Origin: Methanoregulaceae archaeon
Lineage (GTDB): Bacteria > Armatimonadota > Fimbriimonadia > Fimbriimonadales > Fimbriimonadaceae
NCBI GenBank assembly: GCA_020850325.1
Contig: JADZEW010000022.1
Location: 62,001-126,000, forward strand
Length of the DNA stretch: 64,000 nucleotides
Reading direction: 5' to 3'
In this document: in pieces, positions 37,872-58,957 of the stretch
Position numbering within the stretch: the first letter of the stretch is position 1
Layout: each line of letters opens with the position of its first letter
Program-made: the position numbers and the translations under genes
The notes under the pieces: model-generated
Told to the model about the DNA's origin: nothing
Database searches by the model: none
What the model saw: only the letters and a program-made list of their open reading frames with translations

Positions 37872-39058
37872 TTCTGCACCCCGATGAGGTTGCCTGCTGC
37901 CTCGTACTTCGAAGCTAGGGCGAGATTCACAGCCAGTTGAGATTCGGCAAGCTCTTGTTCTATCTCCCTAAGTGAGCGTGTCGCTTCGAGCACATCGAGA
38001 AGGGTGCCAATTCCCTCGGCGAACCCACGTTGAGACTTCGCCACAAGGTCCTTGGCTGATTCGCGAATCGCCTCATAGGATGCTAGGCGCCTGCGAGATG
38101 CTTCAATTTCGATTTCAATTGATGCGATGACGGCCTCGGCCCTCTTCGTTGAATCAAGTAAGAGCGCTTGGATTGACTCAGTCTGCTTAGTCGCCGCCCC
38201 TTGTTCATATCGTGAGCGACCAAAGTCGAAGACACGCCAAGTCAGCTGCAATCGCAATCCATACGATGAGGAGGACTCTCGCCATGGGGTGCGAAGACCG
38301 AGAAGCTCTAACTCCGGGAGGTTCGCGCGCGACGCGACGACTTTCTCAGCATGGGCTGCGCTCGCTTGAGCTGACAGGGCCATGATGTCGGGGCGTTGGC
38401 TCAGGTCGACGTTGGGATTCGCGATGGTTGCACTGAGGTCGACCGATGCTATTGGTTCGTTCGAACCGGTTGCTGCAGCCAACTTCTTCAGCGAGGCACG
38501 CAGTTGCGCAACCCGCAATGCGGACGTTTGCTTGGCGCGGTCAAGCTCGATGGTCGCCCGAGTCAACTGCACCTCGGGAATTTTGCCTTCCTCGAACCGG
38601 CGCACTGTCGCTTTCTGCAAGGCTTCCGCAACTTGGAGAAGGTCCCCGGCAACCATGCTCAAGCGGGTCGCCGCACTCGCCTCGAAGTACGCCACCATCA
38701 CATCCGACTGCACAGCGAGCAGCGTTTGTCGGCGCTCAGCCTCGGCAATACGGACCTGTGCGCGACCGAAGTTCGCCGAGGCCGAAGTCCTGCCGAACAG
38801 GTCGATGGGCTGACTGACGAAGAGGTCTTGGTCTGTGGCACCCAGTCCTTCACGACTTGATTGGCCAACGCCGACCGTCAGGGCGGGATAGGCGCCAAGT
38901 GCTCGGGCGGACAGCTTGGCCCGGTCGAGATTTAGCTGCGTCGCGAGAACGGCCTGTCTAGATGCGCGAGCATCGGATAGTGCTTGGTGCAAGCTCAGCG
39001 GTTGAGCCTGCACGCAAAAGGGAAAAATGATAAGTGCAATTACTGCTTGGGTCTTCAA
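37868..39058 (-). CDS. czcC: CzcC outer-membrane efflux channel (TolC family)
   Basis: 396 aa with signal peptide (QAVIALIIFPFCVQAQ) and two TolC-type repeats: SLHQALSDARASRQAVLATQ and the second half around QTESIQALLLDSTKRAEAVIASI, both long coiled-coils. It is the outer-membrane exit duct for CzcBA. It overlaps czcB by 4 nt. Confidence 0.9.
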   Translation of the reverse strand: MKTQAVIALIIFPFCVQAQPLSLHQALSDARASRQAVLATQLNLDRAKLSARALGAYPALTVGVGQSSREGLGATDQDLFVSQPIDLFGRTSASANFGRAQVRIAEAERRQTLLAVQSDVMVAYFEASAATRLSMVAGDLLQVAEALQKATVRRFEEGKIPEVQLTRATIELDRAKQTSALRVAQLRASLKKLAAATGSNEPIASVDLSATIANPNVDLSQRPDIMALSAQASAAHAEKVVASRANLPELELLGLRTPWRESSSSYGLRLQLTWRVFDFGRSRYEQGAATKQTESIQALLLDSTKRAEAVIASIEIEIEASRRRLASYEAIRESAKDLVAKSQRGFAEGIGTLLDVLEATRSLREIEQELAESQLAVNLALASKYEAAGNLIGVQK

Positions 39059-39538: not shown

Positions 39539-39738
39539 AGAAAATCTCAGTGACTCGTTAGTATGACGGCTTGCTGCTACCAAACGTCGCCCGGCCCCAA
39601 CCAGTGCCTCCTCAAGAGCCCCTTTGAAGTGGCGCAACCCTCGACTGCGCCTTTCGCGCAAAGAGCGCAGTTGCCGATAACACGCCAGGTTCGACTCCCG
39701 GCCCCGGAGGAGCTAGGAACCTCTCGATTTGAGAGACT

Positions 39739-40455
39739 ATGCGCTCCCCAAAACTGAAAAGCGAAGAAGTCGAACTTCAGCCCCTCGAACCCGCCGTCCG
39801 CGAAGTCGCGACCATCATCCGCCGGTATCGGTTGAGCTATGAGCAACTCTCATACGTGACGAAGATGGCGCGGCGCCGGACAGACCTTCGAAACCCGAGG
39901 CCATCCAAGAAGTTGCCGCGCAACCTAACCGACCAGCAACTGGCATCCTTCTTTCAAGCCATTGAGCGTGGTGGCAACGCTGAACATGCTTTGCTCTTCC
40001 GTCTCGCGTACTTCACCGGCCTCCGAGTCGCCGAGCTCTGTGGTCTGCTACGTGATGATGTCGACGTTCAAGGTCTGACCATCCGGGTCAACCAAGGCAA
40101 GGGGAGCAAAGACAGAACCGTCCTGTTCCCCGAACAGCTTCGGTTAGCCATGCGGCTTCACCTTGACTCGACTCGCGACCGACGATTCGTCTTTGAGTCA
40201 CGAAGAAACACCAAGCTATCCCCTCGATGGGTGCAAACGCTGGCATCGGAGTATGGCCGTCAAGCAGGAATTGAGGGTATGACACCTCATCGGTTGCGCC
40301 ACACCCTATTGACCGACCTCTGCCGAGCCGGTCTCTCAGACGCAGCCGTACAGCAGATTTCCGGCCACGCCGACCGGAGAGTCTTGGCGATGTACCAGCA
40401 TCTGGCCTTGAGCGACGTGCGCGACGACTACCAAGAGGCGATGAGGCAGAAGTAA
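39739..40455 (+). CDS. Compact tyrosine recombinase (XerC/D-like)
   Basis: 238 aa with a complete catalytic set: Arg in YFTGLRVAELCGLL, Lys in GKGSKDRTVLF, HRLRHTLLTDL, then GHADRRVLAMYQHLA with Tyr. The N-terminal core-binding domain is abbreviated to about 60 residues. It is divergent from the czc operon and just upstream of hsdM. Recombinases in this position sometimes invert hsdS segments, but only one hsdS is present here. It could also be the integrase of a nested element. GGCCCCGGAG lies 38 nt before its start. Confidence 0.85.
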   Translation: MRSPKLKSEEVELQPLEPAVREVATIIRRYRLSYEQLSYVTKMARRRTDLRNPRPSKKLPRNLTDQQLASFFQAIERGGNAEHALLFRLAYFTGLRVAELCGLLRDDVDVQGLTIRVNQGKGSKDRTVLFPEQLRLAMRLHLDSTRDRRFVFESRRNTKLSPRWVQTLASEYGRQAGIEGMTPHRLRHTLLTDLCRAGLSDAAVQQISGHADRRVLAMYQHLALSDVRDDYQEAMRQK

Positions 40456-40538: not shown

Positions 40539-42179
40539 ATGGCGAGGAAGGGCAAGGCACAATCCAATGGGTCAGGAGCACACTTGGGCTTCGAGGCGAC
40601 CATGTGGGCCGCAGCGGACAAGTTGCGGGGGAATATTGATGCCTCCGATTACAAGCATGTTGTGCTCGGCCTCATCTTCCTGAAGTACATCTCCGACGCC
40701 TTTACCGAGCGACGGCTTGCCCTCCTCGACGAAATCAAGAAGGAGCAACCCTCACTCTTTACGGCCGAGGCCCGAAAGGGATATGACGGCGCGGCCCCGG
40801 ACGTGGCCTTGCCCCAATGGGTGAGAGAGACGCTCGACGACCGAGACGAGTATCTCGCCGAGCACGTCTTCTACGTTCCCGAGGTTGCACGGTGGGAGTA
40901 CGTCCAGGCGCAGGCCAAGTTGCCGACGATAGGCAAGACCATCGATGAGGCCATGCTCGCCATCGAGAAGGAGAACCCCCGGCTCCGAGGAGTTTTGCCC
41001 AAAGACTACGCCCGTGAGCAGCTTGACAAGCGGCGACTTGGCGAACTCGTCGACCTCATCGGCAGCATCCAACTTGGCGACAAAGAGAACCGGTCGAAGG
41101 ACGTTCTCGGCCGCGTCTACGAATACTTCCTAGGCCAATTCGCAAGTTCGGAAGGAAAGAAGGGCGGCGAGTATTTCACCCCTCAGGCAGTCGTCCGAGT
41201 CCTCGTCGAGATGTTGGAGCCCCATGAAGGCGCACGCATCTACGACCCGTGCTGTGGTTCTGGAGGAATGTTCGTCCAGTCAGAGAAGTTCATCGAACAG
41301 CATGGCGGTCGCAAAGGACGAATCGCCGTCTACGGCCAAGAGCTCAACCACACCACTTGGCGACTGGCTCAGATGAATCTTGCCATTCGCGGCATCGAGG
41401 CGACCATCGAGGAAGGAGACACCTTCCATGCCGACAAGCACCCCGACCTGAAAGCGGATTTCATCATCGCGAACCCCCCATTTAACATCAGCGACTGGGG
41501 AGGCGACCGCTTGCGGCAAGACGTCCGGTGGAAGTTCGGGGCTCCGCCGGTCGGCAACGCCAACTTCGGCTGGGTTCAGCACTTCATCCATCACTTGGCG
41601 CCCAACGGTACCGCTGGGTTCGTTCTGGCAAACGGTTCTCTCAGCTCGACTCAGTCGGGCGAAGGCGACATTCGCAAAGCCATCGTCGAGGCAGACTTGG
41701 TCGACTGCGTGGTCGCCTTGCCGCCCCAGCTCTTCTACACAACGGGCATCCCGGTTTGCCTGTGGTTCCTCACTCGGAACAAAAACAACGGAAAGTTGCG
41801 CGACCGGCGCGGCGAGGTCTTGTTCATCGACGCCCGCAAGATGGGGACGCTCGTCACCCGAGTCCTGCGCGAACTGTCCACCGAGGAAATCGCCGAAATC
41901 GCTGGCACCTACCATGCTTGGCGAGGTGAACCGGAGGCCGGCACTTTCGAAGACCAGAAGGGCTTTTGCATGTCGGCAAAGCTCTCCGACATCCGCGAGC
42001 ACAATCACATCCTCACTCCCGGTCGATACGTGGGTGCCGAGGACATCGAGGCGGACGACGAGCCGTTTGAGGAGAAGTTTGCTCGGCTGAGCAAGCAACT
42101 TGAGGAGCAATTCTCCGAGTCCAACCGACTTCAGGAAGTCATCCGGGGCAACCTCGCCAGGTTGCGGAGGCCAGAGTGA
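40539..42179 (+). CDS. hsdM: Type I restriction-modification methyltransferase HsdM
   Basis: 546 aa. The HsdM N-terminal helical domain ([32 protein letters not shown]) is followed by an N6-adenine methyltransferase domain with SAM motif [17 protein letters not shown] (about 237) and catalytic NPPFNISDW (about 312). It methylates adenine with HsdS and also serves the restriction complex. It overlaps the next gene by 4 nt (GTGA). HsdS and HsdR follow only after several inserted genes. Confidence 0.97.
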
Positions 42180-43177
42180 GCAAGGCGATTTCGCTCTTCT
42201 CTGGATACTCCCAGAAGGAGAACCGGACGACCAACTACTGCCTGCTCGTCCTCAAGCTCCTTTATGAAGAAAACCCGAAGTTTCTGGGTGAAGTGCTCGG
42301 CACGCTAATGGGGGAGCAAATCGGTGAACAGGTCGGGGTTCAGTTTCGCCAGCAGCACAAGCGAGCAAAGAGCATCCCAGATGGGCTGATTTGCCAAACC
42401 GCCTTCACCATCTACATTGAGACCAAGAACTTCGATTGGTTCTATGACGCCCAGATTGCCAACCACCTGGCCGCGCTGAACTATGAAGCGCCGGGTCTGA
42501 AAATCCTGCTGGCCCTCGGCAACTTCGAGTCCTACGACGAGAACCGCTTCGAGACCGTTCAGAAGCTCTGCGAGACCACCTATCAAGGGAAAGTCGTGTT
42601 CGCATCGGCGGGCTTCGAAGACCTTCTCGATGCCCTGCGCAACATCACTTTGCCCAAGAACCTTGCCGATGCAGTCGAGGACTTCGGCGCCTACCTCGAC
42701 GAGGAGGGTCTGCTTCCGAACTGGCAGTATCGACTCGACGTCGTGAACTGCGCGGGCATCGTGGATGAACCGATTGAAGGGCAGGTCTATCTTTGCCCGG
42801 CGACCGGCGGCCATTACAATCACAAGCGGAGCAAGTTCTTCGGTCTCTACAAAGGCAAGCAGGTTGGCTATGTCGCGCTCATCGAGGCTGTGGTTGACCT
42901 GCATGGAGACGATGACCACCAGATTCTCTGGAAGAACGTCGCCATCACTGACAAGGAGGTCGTAGAGCAGGCTCGGGCTAAGCTTGCCCGGTGGCGACCC
43001 GGCAACTTCCCGACGCGGGTCTTCTTACTTGGCGAACTCGTAGCAACATCATTCAGAAAGGACACTCCGAAAGGGATGCAAGGCTCGAAGCAGTATTTCT
43101 GGGTCAATGCCAAGGATGCCCATGACCTAGCCGGCCAGCTTGCTGACCGGGGCTGGTCGGAATGGAGGGCGAGTTGA
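42176..43177 (+). CDS. PD-(D/E)XK-like nuclease protein inside the type I locus
   Basis: 333 aa, GTG start overlapping hsdM. The stretch [25 protein letters not shown] has the spacing of a PD-(D/E)XK active site (D, then ExK about 14 residues later). No helicase or target-recognition domain is present. The rest is an alpha/beta protein of unknown family ending in a small domain ([28 protein letters not shown]). Tight coupling to hsdM suggests co-function with the methylase, perhaps as an accessory nuclease that senses modification. That is inference. Confidence 0.6.
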
Positions 43178-43232
43178 GGATGGCAAACCATCGTGAGGGG
43201 TTGCGTCGGAGTTCGTTCGACGGGGTGACCCC

Positions 43233-44126
43233 ATGGCAATAACGCAACGCGTTCGGGACCGACTTCTCGTTGAAGCACGACACCGGTGCACTATCTGCGC
43301 TGAGAAAGCCTATGAGCTTCATCACATCATCGAACAAGCTCAGGGCGGTGACGACTCAGAGGAGAACCTGATTGTCCTTTGCCCCAACTGTCACCAGCAG
43401 CGCGTACATCGGAACAAGGAGTTCTCGATGGAGCAGCTCCGCCAATACAAAGCCAACCTAAGGGAGCGCAACGAGGTCGAGCGAAGACTGGTGATGAACC
43501 TCCAAGACATTCGGGTTCTCATGGAGACCGAAGGCTTGGCAGCGGCGCAAAAATCCCTTCGACGGGAGTTATCAGAAGCTGCATCACAGATTGATGAGGC
43601 TAACTCTCCCTCTGCCTTTGAGGCAGTCGAGACTACGGCTCGCTGGCTCGCCGAGCGGGAGGCGCTCCATGCAGGAGCCCGCGAGGCCCTGGAACTGGAG
43701 TGCGACATCGACATTCAGCGAGAACTTGCGAAGTGGGGCGAGTTCAAGATTGTCGAGGTTGATGAAGCTGGATGGAAGAAGGCGGACGACTTTCCAGCAG
43801 CCTATTCATTCGTCGTTAAGCTCAATGGACCCCCATACAGCCAGTGGTGCGAAGTGTTCGAGAACGAATACAAAACCTCGTTCTACATGATGAAACGCAA
43901 GTCTAGGGTGTCCGGCGACCGCCTGGTTATGATAGTGGCGGACTCTGACAACCTCCAAAACCACCTCGACTTCCTGAAGCAACTTGTCGAGTCGACGAAT
44001 CAACGAATTCGAGACCACTTGGAGAGAACACTTCGACCGCACCTCAACCGCGAGAGGGCACGGGTCTTGGCCGAGTTCGATACCATTGAGTCGCTCAAGA
44101 GCAAGGTGAAGGGGTTGAAGCTATGA
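43233..44126 (+). CDS. HNH endonuclease-domain protein
   Basis: 297 aa. Residues 15-60 are an HNH domain with zinc knuckles and catalytic His: CTICAEKAYELHHIIEQAQGG...NLIVLCPNCHQQRVH. A coiled-coil (65-150) and an unknown C-terminal alpha/beta domain follow. HNH proteins with long C-terminal partners are frequent in defence islands. It lies between the PD-(D/E)XK gene and hsdS on the same strand; the start is preceded by GGGGTGA. Confidence 0.8.
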   Translation: MAITQRVRDRLLVEARHRCTICAEKAYELHHIIEQAQGGDDSEENLIVLCPNCHQQRVHRNKEFSMEQLRQYKANLRERNEVERRLVMNLQDIRVLMETEGLAAAQKSLRRELSEAASQIDEANSPSAFEAVETTARWLAEREALHAGAREALELECDIDIQRELAKWGEFKIVEVDEAGWKKADDFPAAYSFVVKLNGPPYSQWCEVFENEYKTSFYMMKRKSRVSGDRLVMIVADSDNLQNHLDFLKQLVESTNQRIRDHLERTLRPHLNRERARVLAEFDTIESLKSKVKGLKL

Positions 44127-44218
44127 GTCCCGCAGTCATTTTCGACTCCAGGGCTCGGGGAGAACATCCTGTTATGAGTGCTCAATGCCCGCAGCGACTT
44201 CCTGTCCCTGCCGGTGGG

Positions 44219-44353
44219 CTACTTGCCCTTCTTGGGTTGTCGCTGGCTGAGAGCAGACCCGGCGACCGACTTGGCGGCCTTGCTCGCGTTTCCGCTCTGC
44301 AAGACCTTGCTGGCCGTCGAGGCAACCTTCGGCGACGTTTTCTTACATCCCAT
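44219..44353 (-). CDS. 44-aa Ala/Ser/Lys-rich small protein, antisense inside the locus
   Basis: ATG 44353 to TAG 44219 on the minus strand, below the length cut-off of the track. It starts MGCKKTSPKVASTASKVLQS and ends in a basic tail. Two similar Ser-Lys-rich segments (VASTASKVLQSG, ASKAAKSVAGSALSQ) give it an internal repeat. The composition is clearly protein-like and resembles small 'K-S-P-K-V-A-S-x-A-x-K-x-L' hypothetical proteins found in many bacteria. I know no function. It is the only minus-strand gene in the 40.5-52.3 kb defence block. Confidence 0.6.
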   Translation of the reverse strand: MGCKKTSPKVASTASKVLQSGNASKAAKSVAGSALSQRQPKKGK

Positions 44354-44496
44354 GGTGGTTTGACCTCGTTGTTAGATTTCGGCGCACCGGTCGCTTGCGC
44401 GACGCCCATCGACCGAGGCACGGTGCTCCACAATTACAGACGCACGTCTACGCTGACGCGATGCGCGAATTTGGCAGTCGGAGCAAGAGAGTGCTA

Positions 44497-45789
44497 ATGG
44501 GGGAATCAAGTTGGCCACTAATAAGCATCGAGGATGCTACCGAAGCCATCATCGACTATCGCGGGAAAACTCCCGAAAAGACGCAGTCCGGGGTTCCCCT
44601 GATTACCGCGAAAGTAGTCAAGAACGGTCGAATCGAAGAACCTGACGAGTTCATCGCAGAAGCTGACTACATTCCCTGGATGAGACGGGGGATGCCGAAG
44701 CCAGGAGATGTCCTAATCACCACTGAGGCTCCGCTCGGGGAAGTAGCGCAACTAGATGGTCGCCGAGTTGCCTTGGCACAACGTCTCATCGGCCTACGCG
44801 GTCGAGCAGGCTTTCTCGACAACGGGTTCTTGAAGTACACCTTGATGTCGCAGTTTGTGCAAGACCAGTTGCACAGCCGAGCCTCTGGAAGCACCGTGAG
44901 TGGTATCAAGCAGAGCGAACTTCGGAAGGTTGAACTACCCATACCGGACTTTGAAACGCAATGCCGCATCTCTGGGCTGTTGAGCGCGCTCGACGACAAG
45001 ATTGAACTCAACCGGCGCATGAATGAGACGCTGGAGGCGATGGCACGGGCGCTGTTCCGGTCGTGGTTCGTCGACTTCGACCCGGTGCGAGCAAAGTCCG
45101 AAGGCCGCCCAACCGGCCTCCCCGCCGACCTCGAAGCCCTCTTCCCCAACGAATTCGAAGACTCCCCCCTCGGCGAGATACCTAGGGGCTGGAGGGCTGG
45201 AAGCGTATCTGATGTTGCGGGTATTGGCCGCCAACAGGTCAACCCAGGGGATGCGCCGGATGAGGTCTTCGCCCACTTCAGCATCCCCGCGTTCGATGCC
45301 GGCCGCAACCCGATTCTGGAAGTTGGGTTTGCCATCAAGAGCAACAAGCTCGTTGTCACACTTGGCTCGATTCTGGTCTCGAAGCTGAATCCCCACATCC
45401 CTAGGGTCTGGCTAACCGATGTCGACCCGGCATATCGTGCTGTTGGCTCTACCGAGTTCTTCGTCCTGCAAGCCAAGGCACCACACTCCTCAGCGTTCCT
45501 GTATTCCTTGATGTCGTCGCCCGAGTTCGCGGTTGACCTTCAGACCCTGGTGACCGGAACATCGAACAGCCATCAGCGGGTGCAACCCGAGGCCTTCATG
45601 TCCTACTCGCTGGTGGTGCCTTCCGACGAGACTGCGACGGCCTTCGAGTCCCTTGTGAAGCCACTCCTCGACCAGGTTCTAGCAAACCGGAAGGAGATGG
45701 CGCAACTGGCCAAGACTCGCGATGAACTGCTTCCTAAGCTGCTGAGTGAGGAGATAGAGGTCGCCGAGGCGGAGGTCAAGGAATCATGA
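44497..45789 (+). CDS. hsdS: Type I restriction-modification specificity subunit HsdS
   Basis: 430 aa from ATG 44497; the longer track ORF starts in sequence that also codes the shadow ORF of the upstream gap. Two target-recognition domains, each followed by a conserved helical spacer: MNETLEAMARALFRSWFVDFDPVRAKSEGRPTG (about 185-220) and RKEMAQLAKTRDELLPKLLSEEIEV at the C-terminus. It determines the bipartite DNA sequence recognised by HsdM/HsdR. The stop overlaps the abortive-infection gene by 4 nt. Confidence 0.93.
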   Translation: MGESSWPLISIEDATEAIIDYRGKTPEKTQSGVPLITAKVVKNGRIEEPDEFIAEADYIPWMRRGMPKPGDVLITTEAPLGEVAQLDGRRVALAQRLIGLRGRAGFLDNGFLKYTLMSQFVQDQLHSRASGSTVSGIKQSELRKVELPIPDFETQCRISGLLSALDDKIELNRRMNETLEAMARALFRSWFVDFDPVRAKSEGRPTGLPADLEALFPNEFEDSPLGEIPRGWRAGSVSDVAGIGRQQVNPGDAPDEVFAHFSIPAFDAGRNPILEVGFAIKSNKLVVTLGSILVSKLNPHIPRVWLTDVDPAYRAVGSTEFFVLQAKAPHSSAFLYSLMSSPEFAVDLQTLVTGTSNSHQRVQPEAFMSYSLVVPSDETATAFESLVKPLLDQVLANRKEMAQLAKTRDELLPKLLSEEIEVAEAEVKES

Positions 45790-46802
45790 GTCTGCCGCTG
45801 TACCGTTCCGAACAGAGGGCAGTCTCCGAGGTAACGCGCAAGGAGCTGTTCGACCTACTGCGCCTTTGTGACGGCGACTATCACGGGTCAATAGATGAAG
45901 TCGATTTCCTCAACCGAATCTACGACCTAGACGCAATGCCATCTTACGATGGCCGCTCCGCCTACAACACCGCCCGTAAGGACATCATCCAGCACACGGT
46001 CAATAACAACGACTGGGAGTCAGATTGGGTCTTTACGGATGATAGATTTGAGCTAGCTAAGGGAGCTGACGAGGTGCTTCTCCGTTTCCTCGCTGAGACC
46101 CTGCACCCAGTTGTACGAAGCAGCGACGAAGCACAGGAACTTGCGAAGAAGTATAACGACCTGCTCCGAATGGACGGGTGGCAACTGCTCCCCGTCCGTG
46201 AGATTTCCGGAAGACCGGTCTACGGCGCTGTCCCCTTTGCGGCAGACGGAGCTTTGGTGTTCGGTGCAGCGAAGACGATTCAGCAGAAGCTGGACAGTGC
46301 TTACTTAGGCATCCAGATTACGCGGCTTCAACAGGCCGTGGTCAATGACCCCGAACTGGCCATAGGCACGGCCAAGGAGTTCCTGGAGTCCGTCACCAAG
46401 ACTGTCCTTCAGGCCAAGGGTGAGGCGTGGGGTTCCGGCGATTCGTTTCCGTCACTGGTCAAGCAGGCGCTGAAGGTCCTCAAGGTCGTGCCCGATGGCA
46501 TCTCGCGACAGCCCGAAACCGAACAAGCGATTCGGGTTCTTATCAACAACCTGGGTTCGAGTGTCGACAAGCTGGCGGAACTTCGCAACTGGCATGGCAC
46601 CGGCCACGGAAAGGATGCACAACCACAGGATGAGACCTGGCTTGGCGAACACCATGCTCGATTCGTGGTTGGTGTTTCTATCCAAATCGCCCAGTTCATC
46701 TTCGATTGTCTGCAAGCCGAAGGGCAACGGCCCTTGCCGGTGGTTGCTGCGGACGCTGAATTTGTTGCATCCGACGAATACGACCCCTTCGCGGATAACT
46801 GA
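45786..46802 (+). CDS. Abortive-infection family protein with HEPN-like C-terminus
   Basis: 338 aa. The N-terminal 100 residues look like an AbiJ-type NTD (TRKELFDLLRLCDGDYHGSIDEVDFLNRIYDLD). The C-terminal half matches the Abi_C domain: AKEFLESVTKTVLQ...LNNLGSSVDKLAELRNWHGTGHGKD, where R-N-x-x-G-x-x-H is the HEPN-RNase-type motif. Such proteins are phage-triggered RNases or cofactors. ATGA coupling to hsdS implies co-expression with the restriction-modification specificity subunit. Confidence 0.8.
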   Translation: MSLPLYRSEQRAVSEVTRKELFDLLRLCDGDYHGSIDEVDFLNRIYDLDAMPSYDGRSAYNTARKDIIQHTVNNNDWESDWVFTDDRFELAKGADEVLLRFLAETLHPVVRSSDEAQELAKKYNDLLRMDGWQLLPVREISGRPVYGAVPFAADGALVFGAAKTIQQKLDSAYLGIQITRLQQAVVNDPELAIGTAKEFLESVTKTVLQAKGEAWGSGDSFPSLVKQALKVLKVVPDGISRQPETEQAIRVLINNLGSSVDKLAELRNWHGTGHGKDAQPQDETWLGEHHARFVVGVSIQIAQFIFDCLQAEGQRPLPVVAADAEFVASDEYDPFADN

Positions 46803-46949
46803 CCATGACTACCCGAGGGTCGCAACCAACCACAATGTTGACTACTAGCCTCTGTGAGAGACAGTCAGGTCCGTTGATTGCGGACCAGAATGAAGTCATG
46901 TGGTCCCAAAGAGAAGTGGCACGGTTGAGCTCGCGTGCATGGGGGAGCC

Positions 46950-49244
46950 ATGCTTGAAAAGGTCATCACCATACAGGGTGTGGGGCTCTTCGAGGAGGCA
47001 AGCACCCCAGTGGACTTTGGCCGGGTGACGCTGATTTACGGCGAGAATGCAAAGGGTAAATCGACCTTCGCCTGGATACTCAGCAACGCGGCCAAAGGAG
47101 ATGCGACCCAAATGGCGGCAAAGAAGACGTTCAAGTTTGGTGGCTCCCCCAAGGTAGGTCTCTTGTTTAGCACCAAAGGCGGAAAACTGAATTGCACGTT
47201 CAAAGACGGTGCGTGGTCAAACACCTTTGCCTCCATTGAAGTGTTTGACTCGGTCTTCGTAGATGACAATGTCTATTCCGGGATGGCGGTGGAGTCCAAA
47301 CAGCGCCAGCAATTGCTGGATTTCGTGTTGGGTGACGTCCCAGTTGAAATCAAGAAGTCGATTGATAGGTTGGACTCCGACTCGCGCCGAGCATCTGCTG
47401 ACAAGTCCAGTGCAGAAGCTACTTTAAGGGGATATGCTGCCCCATATACAGTCCCCCAGTACATTAAGGCTACGGTACCAGCTGACCTGGAAATCCAGTT
47501 GCAGCGTGCTCTCCAGACCCTGCAGGACGTAAAGAATGCCGAGTCCATCCACGCGCGCGTCAGACCCAAAAGCATCATGCAACTGGGGTTCTTTCTTGAT
47601 GAGCTATTTGCGCAATTCCAGGTCAACGTTAAGGGGCTTGAGGAGAGTGCGGAACGGCGTTTGCGCCAGCACATCGGGACTCGTCCAGCGAACATGGAAC
47701 CATGGCTGCAAGAGGGTCTAGAGTTCTGCATCGACGATAGGTGCCCGTTCTGTGGACAGGCACAGGCCCCGGACTCCCTCATCGATTCCTATAAGGCCTT
47801 CTTCAATGAGGCATATAGAGAGTTTCAGCAGAATCTTGGCAAACTAGTTGCCCAGGCAAGGACGCGAATGAGCGACGCTACAGTCGAGAAGCTCATCACT
47901 CTTGCTACAACTAACAATGATGCCATGGCGTCTTGGGCTCCTCAAGTGGACCTGAAGCCTGTTCCTTTCCCGGAAGACACATTTCGTGCAGCACTCACAA
48001 CCTTTCGTGAGTCCCTAGAGGGGCTTGTGGCGAAGAAGCTTAGTTCGCCACTTGAGGCCATCAGCGAAGATGCTCAAGCCGAAGTTACTGAACTAGCCGA
48101 GCAAGTCAACACGACGCTCGATGACTACCGAACAGAAGTCAACCGTCGAATCGAAGGCATCACCCAGTTCCTTCAGTCCTTGAAGAAGGGCAGCGTCAAG
48201 CAGGTAGAAACGGACGTTTCGAAGTTGGAGGCCCTCAAGAAGCGCAGCTTGCCAGTTGTCGCCGATTTGGTTGGCAAGTACACGACCGCCGCTGCAGACT
48301 ATAAGCGACTAAACGAGGAGAAAGGCAAGCTGCAGAGGAAGCTGCGAGAACTGGCCCCAAGTATCATCACGCCTTACGTAACTGAGATTAATAAACTCCT
48401 CAAGAGTTTTGGGGCTGAGTTTGTCATTGAGAGCGTTGCTCAGGCCAATGACGGCGGGAGGCCAACTGTGAAGTACAGCCTCAATGTGCGGGGAAATGAG
48501 GTTCAGTTGGGTAACCGAGAATCGTCGAAGGGTTCTCCTTCATTCGGTTCTTCGTTGAGTGAAGGGGACAAGCGAACGCTGGCCCTCGCGTTCTTCTTAG
48601 CCAAAATTCGTACAGACACGTCGTTGCCTGAGAAGGTCATCGTGATAGACGACCCCATGTCCAGTTTGGACAGAAACCGGCAGCGCCAAACTATCCAAGT
48701 ATTGGAGGAGCTATCGCGAAGCACCCGGCAGCTTGTTGTCTTATCTCATGATGCGCGATTTTTGGAAGCTCTTAGGGCGAAAGTGATAGGTCGAGCTGCG
48801 GGGGGAGTTCAACCGGGAGTCGTCGCTCTTGCCTTGACTCGTGGCCAAGTTGGTGTCTCGTTCTCTGTATGCAATCTAAATCGATTGGCCATGCAGGGAT
48901 ATGCCGACAAGCGCGCTCGGCTGCAAGAGTATCTGGATGGGAAGAATGGCGACCCTCAGGCTGCAATTCCACTTGTTCGGGCTGTACTGGAGGGTTTTCT
49001 AAAGTTGAAGTACCCTACGGCAATAAATCCGGACCACTCTTTGGGCGATATTATCTACCAAAAGGACACTTATCCAGTGTTTGTCAAGCAGGGCCTCGAA
49101 CCACACTTGGAGCGACTTAAGGTCCTGAATGGGACTTGTGTGTTCAGTCACGGTGGAAATCTCGACGATGAACTGGGTGTGACGGATAGTGAAGTTAGGC
49201 AGTGGGCGCAAGAGGTGCTCGACCTGATACATGGAGGCCTGTAG
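46950..49244 (+). CDS. Zinc-hook AAA/ABC-type ATPase, RloC/PrrC-like
   Basis: 764 aa from ATG 46950, preceded by GGGGGAG. ABC-type head: Walker A YGENAKGKSTF (about 30), signature LSEGDKRTLALAFFLAKI (about 540), Walker B VIVIDDPMSSLD (about 565), H-loop VVLSHDARF. The halves are separated by long coiled-coils with CPFCGQ at about 265, a Rad50/RloC-like zinc hook. The C-terminus has RAVLEGFLKLKYP and later FSHGG. An R-x3-E pair followed by His recalls the PrrC/RloC anticodon nuclease triad, but the spacing differs from PrrC. Its place just before hsdR is where prrC sits in classic type I loci. Confidence 0.75.
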   Translation: MLEKVITIQGVGLFEEASTPVDFGRVTLIYGENAKGKSTFAWILSNAAKGDATQMAAKKTFKFGGSPKVGLLFSTKGGKLNCTFKDGAWSNTFASIEVFDSVFVDDNVYSGMAVESKQRQQLLDFVLGDVPVEIKKSIDRLDSDSRRASADKSSAEATLRGYAAPYTVPQYIKATVPADLEIQLQRALQTLQDVKNAESIHARVRPKSIMQLGFFLDELFAQFQVNVKGLEESAERRLRQHIGTRPANMEPWLQEGLEFCIDDRCPFCGQAQAPDSLIDSYKAFFNEAYREFQQNLGKLVAQARTRMSDATVEKLITLATTNNDAMASWAPQVDLKPVPFPEDTFRAALTTFRESLEGLVAKKLSSPLEAISEDAQAEVTELAEQVNTTLDDYRTEVNRRIEGITQFLQSLKKGSVKQVETDVSKLEALKKRSLPVVADLVGKYTTAAADYKRLNEEKGKLQRKLRELAPSIITPYVTEINKLLKSFGAEFVIESVAQANDGGRPTVKYSLNVRGNEVQLGNRESSKGSPSFGSSLSEGDKRTLALAFFLAKIRTDTSLPEKVIVIDDPMSSLDRNRQRQTIQVLEELSRSTRQLVVLSHDARFLEALRAKVIGRAAGGVQPGVVALALTRGQVGVSFSVCNLNRLAMQGYADKRARLQEYLDGKNGDPQAAIPLVRAVLEGFLKLKYPTAINPDHSLGDIIYQKDTYPVFVKQGLEPHLERLKVLNGTCVFSHGGNLDDELGVTDSEVRQWAQEVLDLIHGGL

Positions 49245-52200
49245 GTGAGCAGCTTCGTCGAATCGCACGTTGAGGAAGCTGCGCTCGACTGGCTTGGCCA
49301 GTTGGGGTACCAGGTTATCTACGGCCCGGATATTCAACCCGAAGGGCCGTATCAAGAACGTGCGACGTTCGGCGAGGTTCTCCTCATCGGCAGGCTTCAG
49401 ACGGCCCTGGCGAGGTTGAACCCGACGCTTCCCGCCGATGCGCTCGACCAGGCGCTTCGCAAGGTGCTGGCTGTCGAGGGTGCCAACCTCATAGACCAGA
49501 ACCGCAACTTCCACCGGCTGCTCGTCGATGGCATCTCAGTCGACTACCGAACTCCACAGGGAGACATCCGGCACGACCTTGCTCGGGTCATCGACTTCGA
49601 CGATGTATCGGCCAACGATTGGCTGGCCTGCAACCAGCTCACGGTGACCGAGGGCAAGTTCAACCGACGCCCAGACGTTGTCCTCTTTCTTAACGGCATC
49701 CCCATCGCGACGCTAGAACTCAAGAACGCGGCGGATGCCAACGCGACGGTCCAAAAGGCGTGGCAACAGCTTCAGACCTACAAGCAGGAGATTCCTCTCC
49801 TGTTCGTCTACGATGGCGTTCTGGCCATCTCTGACGGCTTGGATGCCCGTGGAGGCACCATCAGCGCGGACTTCGAGCGCTTCGCCCCGTGGAGGACGGC
49901 AGACGGCATCAACCTGGCGCCCAAGGGCGTTCCGATGCTGGAAACCCAACTGCGCGGTATGTTCGACCGCCAGAGGCTGCTCGACCTGATTCGCAACTTC
50001 GTCGTCTTCGAGAGCGACGGCGAACACCTCATCAAGAAGCTGGCCGCTTACCACCAGTATTTCGCGGTCAACAAGGCCCTGGAATGCACTCTCGAGGCGA
50101 CCGCAGCCACCGGCGACCGGCGCATCGGCGTGGTCTGGCACACCCAGGGCTCGGGGAAGAGCCTTTCGATGGTGTTCTACGCGGGCAAGGTCATCCAGCA
50201 CCCGGTGATGGAGAACCCGACGCTGGTGGTGGTCACCGACCGCAACGACCTGGACGACCAGTTGTTCCAGACCTTTGCCAGATGCAGCGACTTGTTGCGC
50301 CAGACACCGGTTCAGGCTGAGAACCGCGGCCACTTGAGGGAGTTGCTAAGCGTCAACTCAGGCGGGGTGATTTTCACGACCATTCAGAAGTTCCAACCTG
50401 ATGAACGCGGGGACATCTTGCCAGTGCTGACCAGCCGCCGCAACGTGGTCGTCATCGCGGATGAAGCCCACCGGTCGCAGTATGGATTTTCGGCAAAGTT
50501 GGTCGAGGGAGAAGTGGTGTACGGCTACGCCAAGCACATGCGCGACGCTCTGCCGAACGCTTCGTACATCGGATTCACCGGCACGCCCATCGAGGGCTCT
50601 GACCGGTCGACTCCTGCCGTCTTTGGCGACTACATCGACGTCTACGACATCCAGCGTGCCGTCGAGGACAACGCAACTGTTCCCATCTACTATGAGGCAC
50701 GGCTGGCCAAGCTGGCCCTTGCCGAGGAAGAGAAGCCCAAGGTCGACGACGAGTTCGAGGAGGTGACCGAGGGCGAAGAGGATGCGGTCAAGAACAAGCT
50801 GAAGAGCAAGTGGGCTCGGCTTGAAGCGATGGTTGGCGCGGAGCACCGATTGGAGCTGGTGGCCAAGGACATCGTCGACCACTTCGAGAACCGATTGGCT
50901 GCCATGGATGGCAAGGGCATGATTGTCTGCATGTCGAGGCGAATCTGCATCGACCTCTACAACGAAATCATCAAGCTACGACCCGACTGGCACTCCGAGG
51001 ATGATGACAAGGGAACGCTGAAGGTCATCATGACGGGCTCGGCGACAGACCCTCTCGACTGGCAGCAGCACATCAGAAACAAGGCACGACGAGAACACCT
51101 CGCCGGCCGCTATCGCAACCCCAAAGAGGATTTCAAGCTCGTCATCGTGCGGGACATGTGGCTGACCGGCTTCGACGCTCCGAGCATGCACACGATGTAC
51201 CTGGACAAGCCGATGAAGTCGCACGGCTTGATGCAGGCGATTGCCCGTGTCAACCGGGTCTTCAAGGACAAGCCTGGTGGTTTGGTTGTCGATTATCTTG
51301 GCCTTGCCGACCAACTCAAGGCGGCGATGAAGGACTACACCGAGAGCGGTGGCAAGGGCGACACCACGGTCGACATTGAGGAAGCGGTCGCTCGGATGCT
51401 GGAACTGTTCGAGGTCGTGGAAGGCATCATGCATGGCTTCGCCTGGTCTCACTGGAGCACGTTGTCCCCTGGCGACCGTCTAAGCCTCATTGCCGCGGGT
51501 ATGGAGCATGTGCTGGCGCAGGAGGACGGCGCCAAGCGGTACGTCGACGCGGTCACGAAACTGGCCAAGGCATTCGCCTTAGCAATGCCCCACGATGAGG
51601 CGCTCCGAGTTCGGGAAGACGTTGCGTTCTTCCAAGCAGTGAAGGGAGGATTGGTCAAATACACCATATCCACTGGCCCCGGTCAGACCCAGGCGGAACT
51701 TGATGCCGCCATCCGGCAAATCGTCGCCAAGGCGGTGGTGAGCGACGAAGTCATCGACATCTTCGCGGCCGCCGGCCTGAAGAAACCCGACATCGGCATC
51801 TTGAGTGAGGAGTTCCTTGAGGAAGTCCGCCAGATGCCGCATCGCAACCTCGCGCTTGAATTGTTGCGAAAGTTGATGAGCGACGAGATTCGCTCGCAGT
51901 CCAAGAAGAACGTCGTTCAAGCGCGGTCATTCTCTGAGATGCTGGAGCAAGTGATGCGGTCTTACCAGGCTCGCAGCATCACGGCAGCACAGGTCATCGC
52001 GGAACTCATTGAGTTGGCCAAGGAGATGAACGAAGCCAAGGTCCGCGGTGAGCAACTTGGGCTGTCTGATGACGAGGTCGCATTCTATGATGCCTTGGAA
52101 GTCAACGACTCTGCGGTCGCGATTCTCGGGGATGAAGCTCTTCGCCAAATTGCCCGCGAACTGGTTGAGGTAGTCAAGCGAAGCGTGAGCATCGACTGGA

Positions 52201-52346
52201 CATCACGGGAATCGGTGAAGGCGAATCTGCGACGGATGGTGCGGCGTGTTCTTCGGGCCAATGGCTACCCGCCAGACAAGCAGGAGAAGGCGGTCGAGAC
52301 CGTTCTGCTCCAGGCCGAGACTCTGGCCGCAGATTGGGCATCCTGA
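49245..52346 (+). CDS. hsdR: Type I restriction enzyme HsdR
   Basis: 1,033 aa, GTG start directly after the ATPase stop. The N-terminal nuclease has [21 protein letters not shown] (D...ExK, about 148-165). The SF2 translocase has [17 protein letters not shown] (about 300), [13 protein letters not shown] (about 405), GFTGTPIEG and [20 protein letters not shown]...[10 protein letters not shown], and the helical tail binds HsdM. It translocates and cuts unmodified DNA. It closes the locus. Confidence 0.97.
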
Positions 52347-55108: not shown

Positions 55109-55322
55109 TTGAATTCTCCTTGGATGCCTTGCACCCAAGTTACTTATCGCACCTAGAATGTGAGACAAACGGAAATGTGCGAAGGCAGGCTGACCAGCAA
55201 AATCAAAGTCCAGTGAGTCTGGTGAATATCGAGGGGACACTCGGCTCAGCGGCCCCGGAAATCCGAGCCTGACCGCTCCCCCACCTTCGTCGGAGCAATC
55301 CCGACAAGGAGACCTGACCAAA

Positions 55323-55853: not shown

Positions 55854-55923
55854 TCCGCGGCCTCGGATGTCAGTCCTTCCAGCAGTTGGCTTCCACAGCA
55901 ACTTGCTGGGAGGACATAACACA

Positions 55924-57063
55924 GTGATACAGACCTACGACCACGCTCGATTCGACCATGAGTGCCGACCATTCGCCGACGTATTGAAGCAGCTTCGGGA
56001 GGACCACGAGATGAAGTTCGATGAGTTGCTCTCGCTGCCTCAACTTCATCTCGACGACGAACTGCGCCTCGTCCACAATGGTGCGCGACTTACGCCTCGT
56101 GGCTTGGCATCATTGGCGCATCTGGTCGAGATTCCGCCCGCAGCCGTCCACTGGCTCAAGGAACGACAGTACGACCGGGAACTCAGCCATATCGTGAACG
56201 ACCAGCTTATGCGTCTCCGGGCGCAAGAATCGGGGTGCGCAGACCGGCGCGTGTTTTCGCGTTTTCGAGGTAGCAAGGACGCGAACCTTTACCTCCGAGC
56301 GCTTTTCAGTGACCGCTTTTGTCCGGTCGATTCGTTGCCGGCCCTGGAAATGGTCCGTGAAGCCTTGACCGACAATGAGTTCAACTCCGCTCACGTCCAT
56401 CGACTGAGCTACGACGGCGATGAACTGTTCTGCAACATCCTGTGGTCAGGAGGCGACCGTAATGTTGGAGGGAGTAGCTACGCGTGCGGTATCGCACTGC
56501 AAAACGGAGAGGTTGGAACGATTAGGCTCAAACTCGCTCCAGTCGTGCTCAGAAAGGTCTGCAGCAATGGACTGGTCGTTCAAAACTCGATGGACGTGGC
56601 CGGCGTTTCAAAGCGCCATGTCGGACGAATCGACATGAATGACCTTGCAAAGGGTATCCGCGCCGCACTGGGCTGTGCTCTCGAAGTGGCCGACCAAACC
56701 ATCATCGGAATGGAAGCCGCGCGAAACATCCCCGTCGAGGACGCTACCCGAGCCATCGCGCAGGTAAGCCGAGAAATGAAGCTGACCCGTGAACAGACAC
56801 GGGCCTGGTTGGATGGACATGATGCTACGCTCAACGAACCCGGAGTCGGCGAGGTGAGTGTCTTCAGCATAGTCAACGGCTTAACAAAGGGCGCCCAAAA
56901 TCCGGGATTCGAGCCGACAAGTCGTGTCTTTCTGGAGACGGTTGCTGGTCGTATCCTAGCGCCTTCACCTTTTTCTTCGGAATCAGCGGTGAGGGGCTGG
57001 TGGAACGAATTGGAGATTCGCGCTCGGTCGCTGAGCGATGAAGTCCTCGCTAGCTATCTGTAG
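55924..57063 (+). CDS. DUF932 family protein
   Basis: 379 aa from GTG 55924, with GGGAGGA about 10 nt upstream; the track start overlaps the previous gene. The order of strands and motifs (VHNGARLTPRGLASLAHLVEIPPAAVHWL, then LYLRALFSDRFCPVDSLPALEMVREAL, LSYDGDELFCNILW, RKVCSNGLVV, RAALGCALEVA) matches DUF932/YfjQ-type proteins found on plasmids, phages and integrative elements. Molecular role unknown. Confidence 0.8.
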   Translation: MIQTYDHARFDHECRPFADVLKQLREDHEMKFDELLSLPQLHLDDELRLVHNGARLTPRGLASLAHLVEIPPAAVHWLKERQYDRELSHIVNDQLMRLRAQESGCADRRVFSRFRGSKDANLYLRALFSDRFCPVDSLPALEMVREALTDNEFNSAHVHRLSYDGDELFCNILWSGGDRNVGGSSYACGIALQNGEVGTIRLKLAPVVLRKVCSNGLVVQNSMDVAGVSKRHVGRIDMNDLAKGIRAALGCALEVADQTIIGMEAARNIPVEDATRAIAQVSREMKLTREQTRAWLDGHDATLNEPGVGEVSVFSIVNGLTKGAQNPGFEPTSRVFLETVAGRILAPSPFSSESAVRGWWNELEIRARSLSDEVLASYL

Positions 57064-57177
57064 GCTGTAACTGATGGATAAGTGGACGGTCGCGAACCTG
57101 TGACCGTCCTATCCTTCAACCCAAACCCCGGCAAGCCATCCGGCCCCGGAGGTTACGTTCGCGCCTTGTTCACAAGC

Positions 57178-57528
57178 ATGGACGCACACCACGAGACTTC
57201 CATTTTTAACATCAGCCAACTCCGCATGTCTCTGGAAAAGCTCGACCTAAACGAGGTCGCGAAGCGCACTATCGAACTGGCCGAGGACTACATGCCCGGC
57301 TGTGCTTGGCTTGACAGTCAAGGCGAAATCCACATCGCCGAAACGATGGGTGAGGTCCAAGGGCTTGTCCTCTGCCAAGCTACGGAAGTTGATGAAGACT
57401 CACCTAATGAAGTCCCATACTGGGTAGCAAGCTGGTTGGACGAGCTCTTTCCGGGCATCGCTGAGAGGCTCAGAACGGCTCTTGACTTAGCATCTTGGGG
57501 CAACGACTCGGCCCCGGAAATGGAGTGA
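57178..57528 (+). CDS. Hypothetical acidic small protein, 116 aa
   Basis: Start taken at ATG 57178, which is 36 nt after a GGCCCCGGAG motif like other genes in this block; GTG 57082 or 57100 would extend it upstream. Soluble and acidic (VLCQATEVDEDSPNEVPYWVASWLDELFPGI). No family recognised. Confidence 0.5.
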   Translation: MDAHHETSIFNISQLRMSLEKLDLNEVAKRTIELAEDYMPGCAWLDSQGEIHIAETMGEVQGLVLCQATEVDEDSPNEVPYWVASWLDELFPGIAERLRTALDLASWGNDSAPEME

Positions 57529-57546
57529 AGAAGCAGCCCATTCAGT

Positions 57547-57873
57547 ATGGGACTCAAGCTTCCAACCAACCTTCCGCCACTTGACTCGACCGACTCAACG
57601 CCTTTCGCGGAGAAGTCCATCGTTGCCCGTATATTCGCTCTTGGAAGCACTGCAACATGGCTCATCGCCGAATATGACCCCGAAGAAAAGGTCGCCTTTG
57701 GCTATGCCGACTTGTTCGGGCAAGGTTCATCAGGCGGTGCTGAATGGGGGTACGTCTCCATCGAAGAACTGGAGTCGCTCAAGTTCATGGGCATTCCCCG
57801 TGTCGAACTTGACGCCCACTTCTCTCCGCGACGTTTCGCGGAGTGCGTTCGAAGTGACGGGACCATCCTCTGA
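57547..57873 (+). CDS. DUF2958 domain protein
   Basis: 108 aa. The pattern LPTNLPPLDSTD...IVARIFALGSTATWLIAEYDPEEKVAFGYADL...EWGYVSIEELESL...PRVELDAHFSPRRF fits DUF2958, a small family common on plasmids and integrative elements. Function unknown. The motif GGCCCCGGAA lies 37 nt before the ATG. Confidence 0.78.
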   Translation: MGLKLPTNLPPLDSTDSTPFAEKSIVARIFALGSTATWLIAEYDPEEKVAFGYADLFGQGSSGGAEWGYVSIEELESLKFMGIPRVELDAHFSPRRFAECVRSDGTIL

Positions 57874-57917
57874 TGGTCAGCGGCCTCGGAGTAATCCGGG
57901 GCAGTTGCGGGAGCACC

Positions 57918-58175
57918 ATGCAACCACCCAAGGGATACTACAAGCAACTCCTTCCACCCGACCTGTCGCACGTGAGGCTTGCCTTCTCCAACATCCCAAT
58001 GTCTGGGGTGCGCAAGCTTGACCCTGCGCCTGTTCTCGCCGTACTAGACGCCCTGAAGAGCAACCAGCACGCTAGGTACTACGCCGATGGCATCCGCAAT
58101 GGAAGCATTCTCGCCGTTGAAGAAGTTGGTGGCGGGAGGTACTGGGCACCCGGAGAGTTGTTCTTCAGGTCGTAA
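57918..58175 (+). CDS. Hypothetical small protein, 85 aa
   Basis: ATG 57918 lies exactly 36 nt after GGCCTCGGAG. The track start (57873, in a TGATG overlap) would place the motif inside the coding region. MQPPKGYYKQLLPPDL, a strand-helix pattern, then EEVGGGRYWAPGELFF. No family recognised. Confidence 0.55.
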   Translation: MQPPKGYYKQLLPPDLSHVRLAFSNIPMSGVRKLDPAPVLAVLDALKSNQHARYYADGIRNGSILAVEEVGGGRYWAPGELFFRS

Positions 58176-58216
58176 CCACCGGCCTCGGAGCCATCCGGGG
58201 CTGGCTTCTCTTGCCC

Positions 58217-58531
58217 ATGAGCAGCCACAGACTTCAGACTCGAGAGTGCCTCGTCAACATCAGCGTCGACCGGCCGCTCAGGCAAATCCTGGCTTCGGTC
58301 ATGACCACGACCGGTCGACCTGCGCCTGGGTTCCCGGCAATGACCAGTTTCCAAGCAACCACCGAAGGAGTCGACCAGGTTGCCGTCAGCGTTGAGACGT
58401 TCATCCGAAAGGCAGAGCCTGGTTGGTCGCTGGCTGAGTCTGTACGTAATGCACTGCTCGATGACGTGCATGCGCTTGAGGCGGGGCGCGACATCAACTA
58501 TGTTCGAGTTCACGAGTTGTCCGATGGGTAG
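58217..58531 (+). CDS. Hypothetical small protein, 104 aa
   Basis: ATG 58217 lies exactly 36 nt after GGCCTCGGAG. Mixed alpha/beta composition (SVDRPLRQILASVMTTTGRP, then SLAESVRNALLDDVHALEAG). No family recognised. Last gene of convincing length before the right end of the island. Confidence 0.5.
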   Translation: MSSHRLQTRECLVNISVDRPLRQILASVMTTTGRPAPGFPAMTSFQATTEGVDQVAVSVETFIRKAEPGWSLAESVRNALLDDVHALEAGRDINYVRVHELSDG

Positions 58532-58715
58532 CGACCACCGGCCCAGGATTCATCGGAAGAGGTTTCGTTTACACGGTGAAAGGCGTAAACGACTCTCGCC
58601 CCGTCTCGCTGAGATGAACCTGCGCCCCCCTTGCCCGAGTTCGGCCTTGGCCCCGCATCGGTCTCTGAAATCTCCGTAAGGCCCCCGGTGGGGTGGAAAG
58701 AAAGGTACCGGACTT

Positions 58716-58871
58716 GTGCCGCCAACCATCCCTCTTTTTGAGTCCCATCATTCCTCTGTGCGAGGGTTTCTCAGCCGCCAATTGAGTTGCATAGTGAGTT
58801 GCATGGACGATTTCCATGCCGGGAGGCTCTGTCCAAACCCCGTCCGGGACGGGGATTTGAAGCTAGAATAG
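58716..58871 (+). CDS. Possible 51-aa ORF reading into the right att region
   Basis: GTG 58716 lies 36 nt after a degenerate motif copy at 58680. The frame (starting MPPTIPLFESHHSSVRGF) crosses the arm repeats and stops 1 nt before the tRNA CCA. It may be a chance frame; the only support is the conserved distance. Confidence 0.2.
   Translation: MPPTIPLFESHHSSVRGFLSRQLSCIVSCMDDFHAGRLCPNPVRDGDLKLE
58782..58803. repeat. Right arm-type direct repeats (integrase binding candidate)
   Basis: Identical over 22 bp to 29410-29431, with two GAGTTGCA units separated by TAGT, followed after one mismatch by GGACGATT. It lies 110 bp inside the right core site. Confidence 0.7.
58838..58854 (-). terminator. 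Hairpin terminator downstream of tRNA-Leu
   Basis: On the minus strand CCCCGTC-CCG-GACGGGG followed by TTTGG, 17 nt after the tRNA CCA. The 7-bp GC stem fits a tRNA terminator, although the U-tract is short. This sequence is on the element side of the junction. Confidence 0.65.
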
Positions 58872-58957
58872 TGGTGGGCAAGGAGGGACTCGAACCCTCA
58901 CGTCTTTTAGACACTGGAACCTAAATCCAGTGCGTCTACCAATTTCGCCACTCGCCC
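58872..58957 (-). tRNA. tRNA-Leu(UAG), 3' half supplied by the island
   Basis: Minus strand, 86 nt including an encoded CCA. Acceptor GGGCGAG / CUUGCCC (one G-U), D-arm with GGUAGACG, anticodon stem CUGGA/UCCAG with loop UUUAGGU (anticodon UAG), class II variable arm GUCU-AAA-AGAC, T-arm GAGGG-UUCGAGU-CCCUC. The gene is functional-looking. The better-pairing CUCGCCC 3' strand now lies at the other end of the island. Confidence 0.95.
58914..58927. other. Right attachment core (crossover site)
   Basis: CTGGAACCTAAATC, identical to 29347-29360 and located over the anticodon loop and 3' anticodon stem of tRNA-Leu. Integrases of this class commonly use anticodon loops as crossover sites. Confidence 0.8.

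Follow-up and report, generated by a model that had tools for sequence, protein, structure and literature searches.

A gene-start element shared by a chromosomal island of Armatimonadota and a co-oriented gene block of huge phages

Short sequences that recur before genes

Promoters of the extracytoplasmic-function (sigmaE) type have a -35 element, at about -36 to -30, that is read by region 4 of the sigma factor. The motif described here would resemble them as a single strong element at what may be a -35 position, with a phage sigma factor whose region 4 is sigmaE-like; it differs in that no conserved -10 was found, and in that the motif is not GGAAC-like. Integron cassettes were also considered, because gene content shuffles between the islands concerned, but attC sites are unlike a 9-10 bp motif tied to the start codon downstream.

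Mycobacteriophages of cluster K carry start-associated sequences (SAS): 11-19 copies of a 13-bp sequence, GGGATAGGAGCCC, with an AGGAG Shine-Dalgarno (SD) core, located 3-7 bp before the start codon (PMC3203893). The likeness is considerable, and the initial annotation of our locus was well guided in pointing to such phage sequences. Both elements are short and asymmetric, and stand in one orientation before the start codons of unrelated non-structural genes; both occupy one part of a genome only, are nearly absent from the host, and form an inverted repeat in some copies. However, neither GGGATAGGAGCCC nor an SD core at 3-7 bp was found: the present motif, CGGYCCCRGA, is 9-10 bp long, unrelated in sequence, present in 82 copies, and placed 36-37 nt before the start.

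Two further phage systems invite comparison. The stoperators of L5-like cluster A phages are likewise asymmetric, oriented, numerous and located in short intergenic gaps (PMC9283540), but they are bound by the immunity repressor, with a halt to elongation, and no anchoring to start codons is described; no such repressor is assigned to the present motif. Late promoters of the giant phage AR9, AACA-(6N)-TA/G, give 5' UTRs of 26-491 nt (PMC5312081). They too are a class-defining short motif before many genes of one huge phage; the present motif, in contrast, keeps a set distance to the start codon, and would occupy the -35 position if transcripts are leaderless, as presumed.

The motif in the island

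The window (the whole 64,000-nucleotide stretch of DNA analysed) holds a chromosomal island with an integrase gene at 39739; the genes considered here form the end that adjoins tRNA-Leu (Table 1). The initial annotation had claimed that GGCCYCGGA stands 36 nt before the starts of consecutive small genes, in one case 37 nt, and this was borne out. Counted from the first base of the motif to the ATG, the distances for four consecutive small genes are 36, 37, 36 and 36 nt: exact copies at 57142, 57882 and 58181 precede ATGs at 57178, 57918 and 58217 by 36 nt, and the copy at 57510 precedes the ATG at 57547 by 37 nt. The long form GGCCTCGGAGNNATCCGGGGC, reported for two copies, is indeed exact at 57882 and 58181, with a chance expectation of 0.04. 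GGCCYCGGA occurs 11 times in the window, where shuffled sequence gives 2.1 +/- 1.4, and several of the 11 are coding or chance copies (20534-, 40793, 47765, 55683-). Two copies were added to those first listed, at 55251 (gene F) and 55859 (the DUF932 gene); in each of these leaders there is an extra stretch with an SD sequence.

Table 1. Motif copies, genes and flanking features of the island in the window
Feature	Position	Strand	Remarks
Tyrosine integrase of the island	39739..40455	+	PF00589
Motif copy GGCCCCGGA before gene F	55251..55259	+	GTG start 55323, 72 nt off; SD between
Gene F, orphan, 176 aa	55323..55853	+	Homologues L134, L144; weak match in huge-phage block
Motif copy GGCCTCGGA before DUF932 gene	55859..55867	+	GTG 55924 at 65 nt; second hairpin and SD between
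Gene G, DUF932 protein, GTG start	55924..57063	+	Pfam PF06067; homologues L134, L144, G060, huge phage
Motif copy GGCCCCGGA before gene A	57142..57150	+	36 nt; spacing kept in four genomes
Gene A, 116 aa	57178..57528	+	
Motif copy GGCCCCGGA before gene B	57510..57518	+	Within 3' end of gene A; 37 nt
Gene B, DUF2958 protein	57547..57873	+	PF11171; 69% identical to huge-phage homologue, 59% to G060
Motif copy with full hairpin GGCCTCGGAGTAATCCGGGGC before gene C	57882..57902	+	36 nt
Gene C, 85 aa	57918..58175	+	No relative in compared loci
Motif copy with full hairpin GGCCTCGGAGCCATCCGGGGC before gene D	58181..58201	+	36 nt, likewise in three genomes
Gene D, 104 aa	58217..58531	+	Homologues L134, L135, huge-phage block
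Degenerate end-of-array copy GGCCCAGGA	58540..58548	+	No conserved start downstream
tRNA-Leu, array end of island	58872..58957	-	

Homologous islands were reached through genes D and A in three genomes of the same bacterial family: L134 (genome G053), L135 (G025) and L144 (G018). Two of the three are in GenBank MAGs named Chthonomonadaceae (Armatimonadota). The motif has the form GGCCCCGGA in all three, and the spacing is 36 nt in all seven of the short leaders (gene A three times, B, D twice, E), so that the proposal to look for the motif in related islands was answered with both the 9-mer and its spacing. For gene B the distance is 36 nt in L135 and in a further genome, G060, and 36 nt to a GTG in the phage described below. 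Gene order and content vary between islands: E is present in L134, C only in the window.

The 27 nt that separate the motif from the ATG have diverged among islands and contain in-frame stops for gene D; the leader is therefore not coding. This disposes of a reading in which 36 nt are simply 12 codons, with the motif read in frame as GPG or GLG: for gene D, an in-frame TAA lies between motif and ATG in both homologues (L134, L135) and speaks against an upstream start; the codons of the gene A leader differ throughout, and protein conservation begins at the proposed methionine. The starts corrected from the motif are supported for these two genes; for gene C, which has no relative among the sequences tested, the start at 57918 is predicted from the motif rule. 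The degenerate copies at 58540 and 58680 do have a GTG at 36 nt (58576 and 58716), as had been claimed, but their interpretation as gene starts fails. The first GTG opens an ORF of 13 codons, and the second lies in the stretch adjoining the tRNA, with no gene after it. Copies of the 58540 type keep a conserved position in the islands, 8-10 nt past the last stop; at the corresponding place L135, L134 and L144 lack a start codon, so 58540 is not a gene start.

Other features of these islands deserve mention. Defence genes lie inside the island of the window (40539-52346): type I restriction-modification genes HsdM, HsdS and HsdR, an AbiJ-type gene, and an AAA_13 ATPase, possibly RloC-like. Directly before the integrase gene, GCCAGGTTCGACTCCCGGCCCCGGAGG (39680-39735) resembles a tRNA 3' end, other than the Leu one, and is a possible attachment-site remnant. 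Beside the end-of-array motif, the window (58566-58579) and L135 carry the 14-mer GGTTTCGTTTACAC, whereas L134 (about 4809-4822) and L144 carry its exact reverse complement, GTGTAAACGAAACC: to judge by the letters, a small inversion beside the presumed attachment region. In G018 (L144:14085-14468) a deletion has fused gene A onto the end of gene E, and in L134 gene A is truncated, which suggests that island genes are decaying or recombining. A heavy-metal efflux operon abuts the island in G018 (L144:10382-13200); its proteins share 39-45% identity with proteins encoded immediately to the left of the window island (36306-39058).

A co-oriented block in a huge phage

Gene B (69% identical) and DUF932 both led to a 479-kb IMG/VR contig, 3300044957_000763. 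Its genes for DNA polymerase, ribonucleotide reductase, terminase and portal identify it as a huge phage. Since it shares genes with the island, such phages probably infect this bacterial group, the Armatimonadota. Every match to GGCCCCRGA-N24..40-ATG in the whole contig falls between 320 and 369 kb, on one strand. When the variant GGTCCCGGA is included, this 50-kb block holds 82 copies of GGYCCCRGA and the opposite strand none; the flanking 47.5 kb hold 2. At 63 of the 82 copies an ATG or GTG stands at 36/37 nt, where the background rate predicts about 6. Homologues of island families B, D, E, H and G, and weakly F, are encoded in the block. A huge-phage SNF2-family helicase of 1449 aa (L223:4372-8721) has Hint and LAGLIDADG domains and appears to carry an intein.

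A second example is contig C5 of G060, in the region with a relative of gene F: within 60.5 kb, GGCCCCRGA occurs 39 times on the gene strand and once on the opposite strand, where a first-order simulation expects 0.5, and the remaining 360 kb hold 2 copies. C5 is collinear with the phage over at least 216-345 kb, and also carries an rpoD-like gene, at 1.277 Mb; the collinear element may be either an integrated or a co-assembled phage. Evidence on the large element comes from one phage contig and one MAG region.

CGG(C/T)C(C/T)C(A/G)GA is accordingly a sequence-specific gene-start element, 36-37 nt before the start codon, in a co-oriented 50-kb block of huge phages, and the chromosomal island of the window has homologous genes with the same element. 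This distribution supports the motif as a property of the mobile element rather than of the host. Directly upstream of the block, in both the phage and G060, lies a sigma factor gene, at 316232-317089 in the phage and at 294457-295368 in G060; the two are 43-47% identical, and region 4 of the phage protein is sigmaE-like. Neither the genome of the window nor those of the other islands contain a close relative of the phage sigma factor.

Wider searches returned little more. Among 291 genomes of the phylum, a dense one-strand excess of the motif was found only in G060 (17 versus 0); closer inspection of G016, G022, G025 and G250 recovered nothing beyond the island already known in G025. An IMG/VR scan for contigs with several copies of the composite motif gave only 3300044957_000763, and two protein scans of viral contigs gave nothing. 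Searches for plasmid relatives by tblastn yielded none or one weak match for genes D and F and the G060 proteins, and only distant DUF2958 proteins for gene B. An initial hairpin scan of viral sequences matched mostly ordinary terminators; GGCCYCGGAGNRATCCGGGGC, flanked by an A-run on its 5' side and a T-run on its 3' side, occurs very commonly as a terminator in diverse phage contigs (L011-L130).

Anatomy of the leader

Besides an ATC before the start codon, the 10-mer CGGYCCCRGA is the sole strongly conserved upstream sequence. Phage leaders aligned on the motif show only (C/G)CGGCCCCGGA as an invariant part; aligned on the start, they show the preceding ATC, with C at -1 in 34 of 42 leaders against 6 of 38 ORFs outside the block. 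Familiar signals are missing. TANNNT at a fixed distance, as a -10 box, is present in 0-8% of the leaders in the phage and in 10% in G060, which argues against leaderless transcription from a promoter with a -10 of the sigma70 kind. Leaders are not enriched for SD sequences relative to the control. The best complementarity to 16S rRNA is a 7-nt match of one variant inside the 16S of G018. A scan of the window from 44 to 64 kb with Rfam 15 found only the tRNA and a sub-threshold CRISPR-repeat match, and none for the motif.

The motif forms the 5' arm of a hairpin in 38 of the 82 phage copies. Where its position 3 is T, T-A (10) or T-G (7) pairs take the place of C-G (21), and UUCG or UACG loops are visible in many. 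These traits would suit an element for mRNA processing or stability, at which cleavage of a polycistronic transcript would leave each gene a 36-nt leader, half of them with a 5' hairpin. The other 44 copies lack a hairpin and yet have an unchanged 10-mer. They make processing a decidedly improbable account, and they also dispose of the 5'-UTR hairpin, offered in the initial annotation, as a universal feature.

In 18 of the 82 copies the hairpin is followed by a T-run that ends a few nt before the start codon. It might be supposed that all copies are ordinary intrinsic terminators, whose GC-rich 5' arm recurs by chance, as GGCCYCGGANNNATCCGRGGC followed by a T-run does in many unrelated phage contigs. 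As a complete explanation this is largely refuted and very improbable: the 18 copies fit a GC-rich hairpin with T-run, but the rest, and the copies in the window, do not; most lack a 3' arm or T-run while the 9-mer stays invariant, and the next start codon follows at a fixed distance.

That distance was tabulated for 103 start-assigned copies from six loci. None has its start below 36 nt, 62 are at 36-37, and the tail extends toward longer distances only: a near-hard lower edge at 36. The search for starts began at 34, and counts of any ATG or GTG below 34 are near zero; the 36/37 peak persists when any ATG or GTG is counted, regardless of ORF length. Outside homologous pairs the gene starts are our own ORF calls, some guided by the motif rule. 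An SD sequence accompanies 11 of 23 distant-start copies and 12 of 62 at 36-37 (p = 0.013), a modest difference that is carried by the islands and the phage and is absent in G060 alone. Six distant-start copies have a short mini-ORF, of 1-8 codons, that begins exactly at 36/37; in three, the stop codon of the mini-ORF adjoins or overlaps the SD sequence or start codon of the actual gene.

This pattern bears on a perspective drawn from mycobacteriophage L5, that the motif is an operator or stoperator, an asymmetric intergenic site at which a bound phage repressor would keep the block silent or arrest its transcription. Published stoperators share several traits with the motif (PMC9283540): asymmetry, a single orientation relative to transcription, location in short intergenic gaps and a high number of copies. 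Stoperators are not described at a fixed distance from start codons, however, and the lower edge at 36 and the mini-ORFs at 36/37 would go unexplained; we consider a repressor site improbable.

Perspectives on function

The explanation we prefer, tentatively and with somewhat less than even confidence, is that the motif is the outer element, at the -35 position, of a phage promoter class with transcripts that begin on the start codon or only a few nt away from it. Recognition would fall to the sigma factor encoded by the phage, with its sigmaE-like region 4, or to an activator at the same site, and the G-poor stretch just upstream of the start codon could be the melting region. Genes with a more distant start would then need an SD sequence or a mini-ORF, and the island genes may respond to the phage factor or to some host factor. 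Confinement to the block with strand exclusivity (82 versus 0; 39 versus 1) favors a promoter, and so do the sigma gene before the block in both elements and the finding that promoters of the sigma70 type are not enriched within it. The absence of starts below 36, with a tail toward longer distances only, fits an RNA 5' end near +36; any mRNA begun upstream would stop at the 18 hairpins with T-runs; the ATC before the start codon supplies a pyrimidine/purine step at the proposed transcript start. Together, the lower edge, the SD sequences and mini-ORFs at distant starts, and the terminator-like hairpins suggest 5' ends near the start codon, and hence a motif at the -35 position.

The initial annotation had reached a similar idea, a promoter element at the -35 position of leaderless transcripts, served by an island-specific sigma factor or activator. 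The gene-start position and the restriction to mobile elements agree with it, but the sigma gene resides in the huge phage, not the island; the location fits -35 if mRNAs are leaderless, but no -10 box accompanies it. Also counting against a promoter, no strongly conserved column exists other than the 10-mer and ATC, the G-poor stretch, which is not strictly AT-rich, also fits selection for unstructured mRNA, and the motif is kept in island genomes although no close relative of the phage sigma is there.

Because of the missing -10 box and the missing sigma relative, a translational start-associated sequence remains a close rival, one we rate as possible though rather unlikely. Here the 10-mer would act in the mRNA leader, where a bound phage or host protein or RNA sets the ribosome 36-37 nt downstream and replaces SD pairing. 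The fixed distance to the start codon, the mini-ORFs that begin exactly at 36/37, SD sequences no more frequent than in the control, and the spacer before the start, which is G-poor and A/C-rich, AACAAACATC, all agree. So does the arrangement in G060, where the motif stands at 33-55 nt in 21 of 30 genes with a gap of 31-80 nt but in 4 of 28 genes that adjoin or overlap another, as though coupling made it unnecessary. Against this, the terminator-like hairpins lie between motif and start in those 18 phage copies, and such a leader often would miss its gene; no useful 16S rRNA complementarity is seen; and SD sequences are scarce in the same phage outside the block as well (4 of 38 genes), so that SD loss does not require the motif.

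Significance

A bolder extension of the promoter reading, which we think unlikely, is that the island acts as a satellite or defence element and has brought a run of its genes under a huge phage's start signal, to be expressed only once the sigma factor of that phage is present in the cell; the signal would then constitute a new class of promoter, with one outer element alone and with leaderless mRNAs. What the sequences show directly is the position, orientation and conservation of the motif, its confinement to the block and the sigma gene beside it; we infer that the motif is DNA read by a sigma factor, that the mRNAs are leaderless and that the island genes respond to a phage.

The motif rule predicts the start codon of about 80 huge-phage genes as well as of the island genes, and the phage sigma factor can be named as a candidate reader. 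Chromosomal defence islands of Armatimonadota are linked to huge phages both by shared genes and by the same control signal. If the leaderless reading is true, the signal would represent an unusual promoter class; if not, it would be a rare SD-free translational signal.
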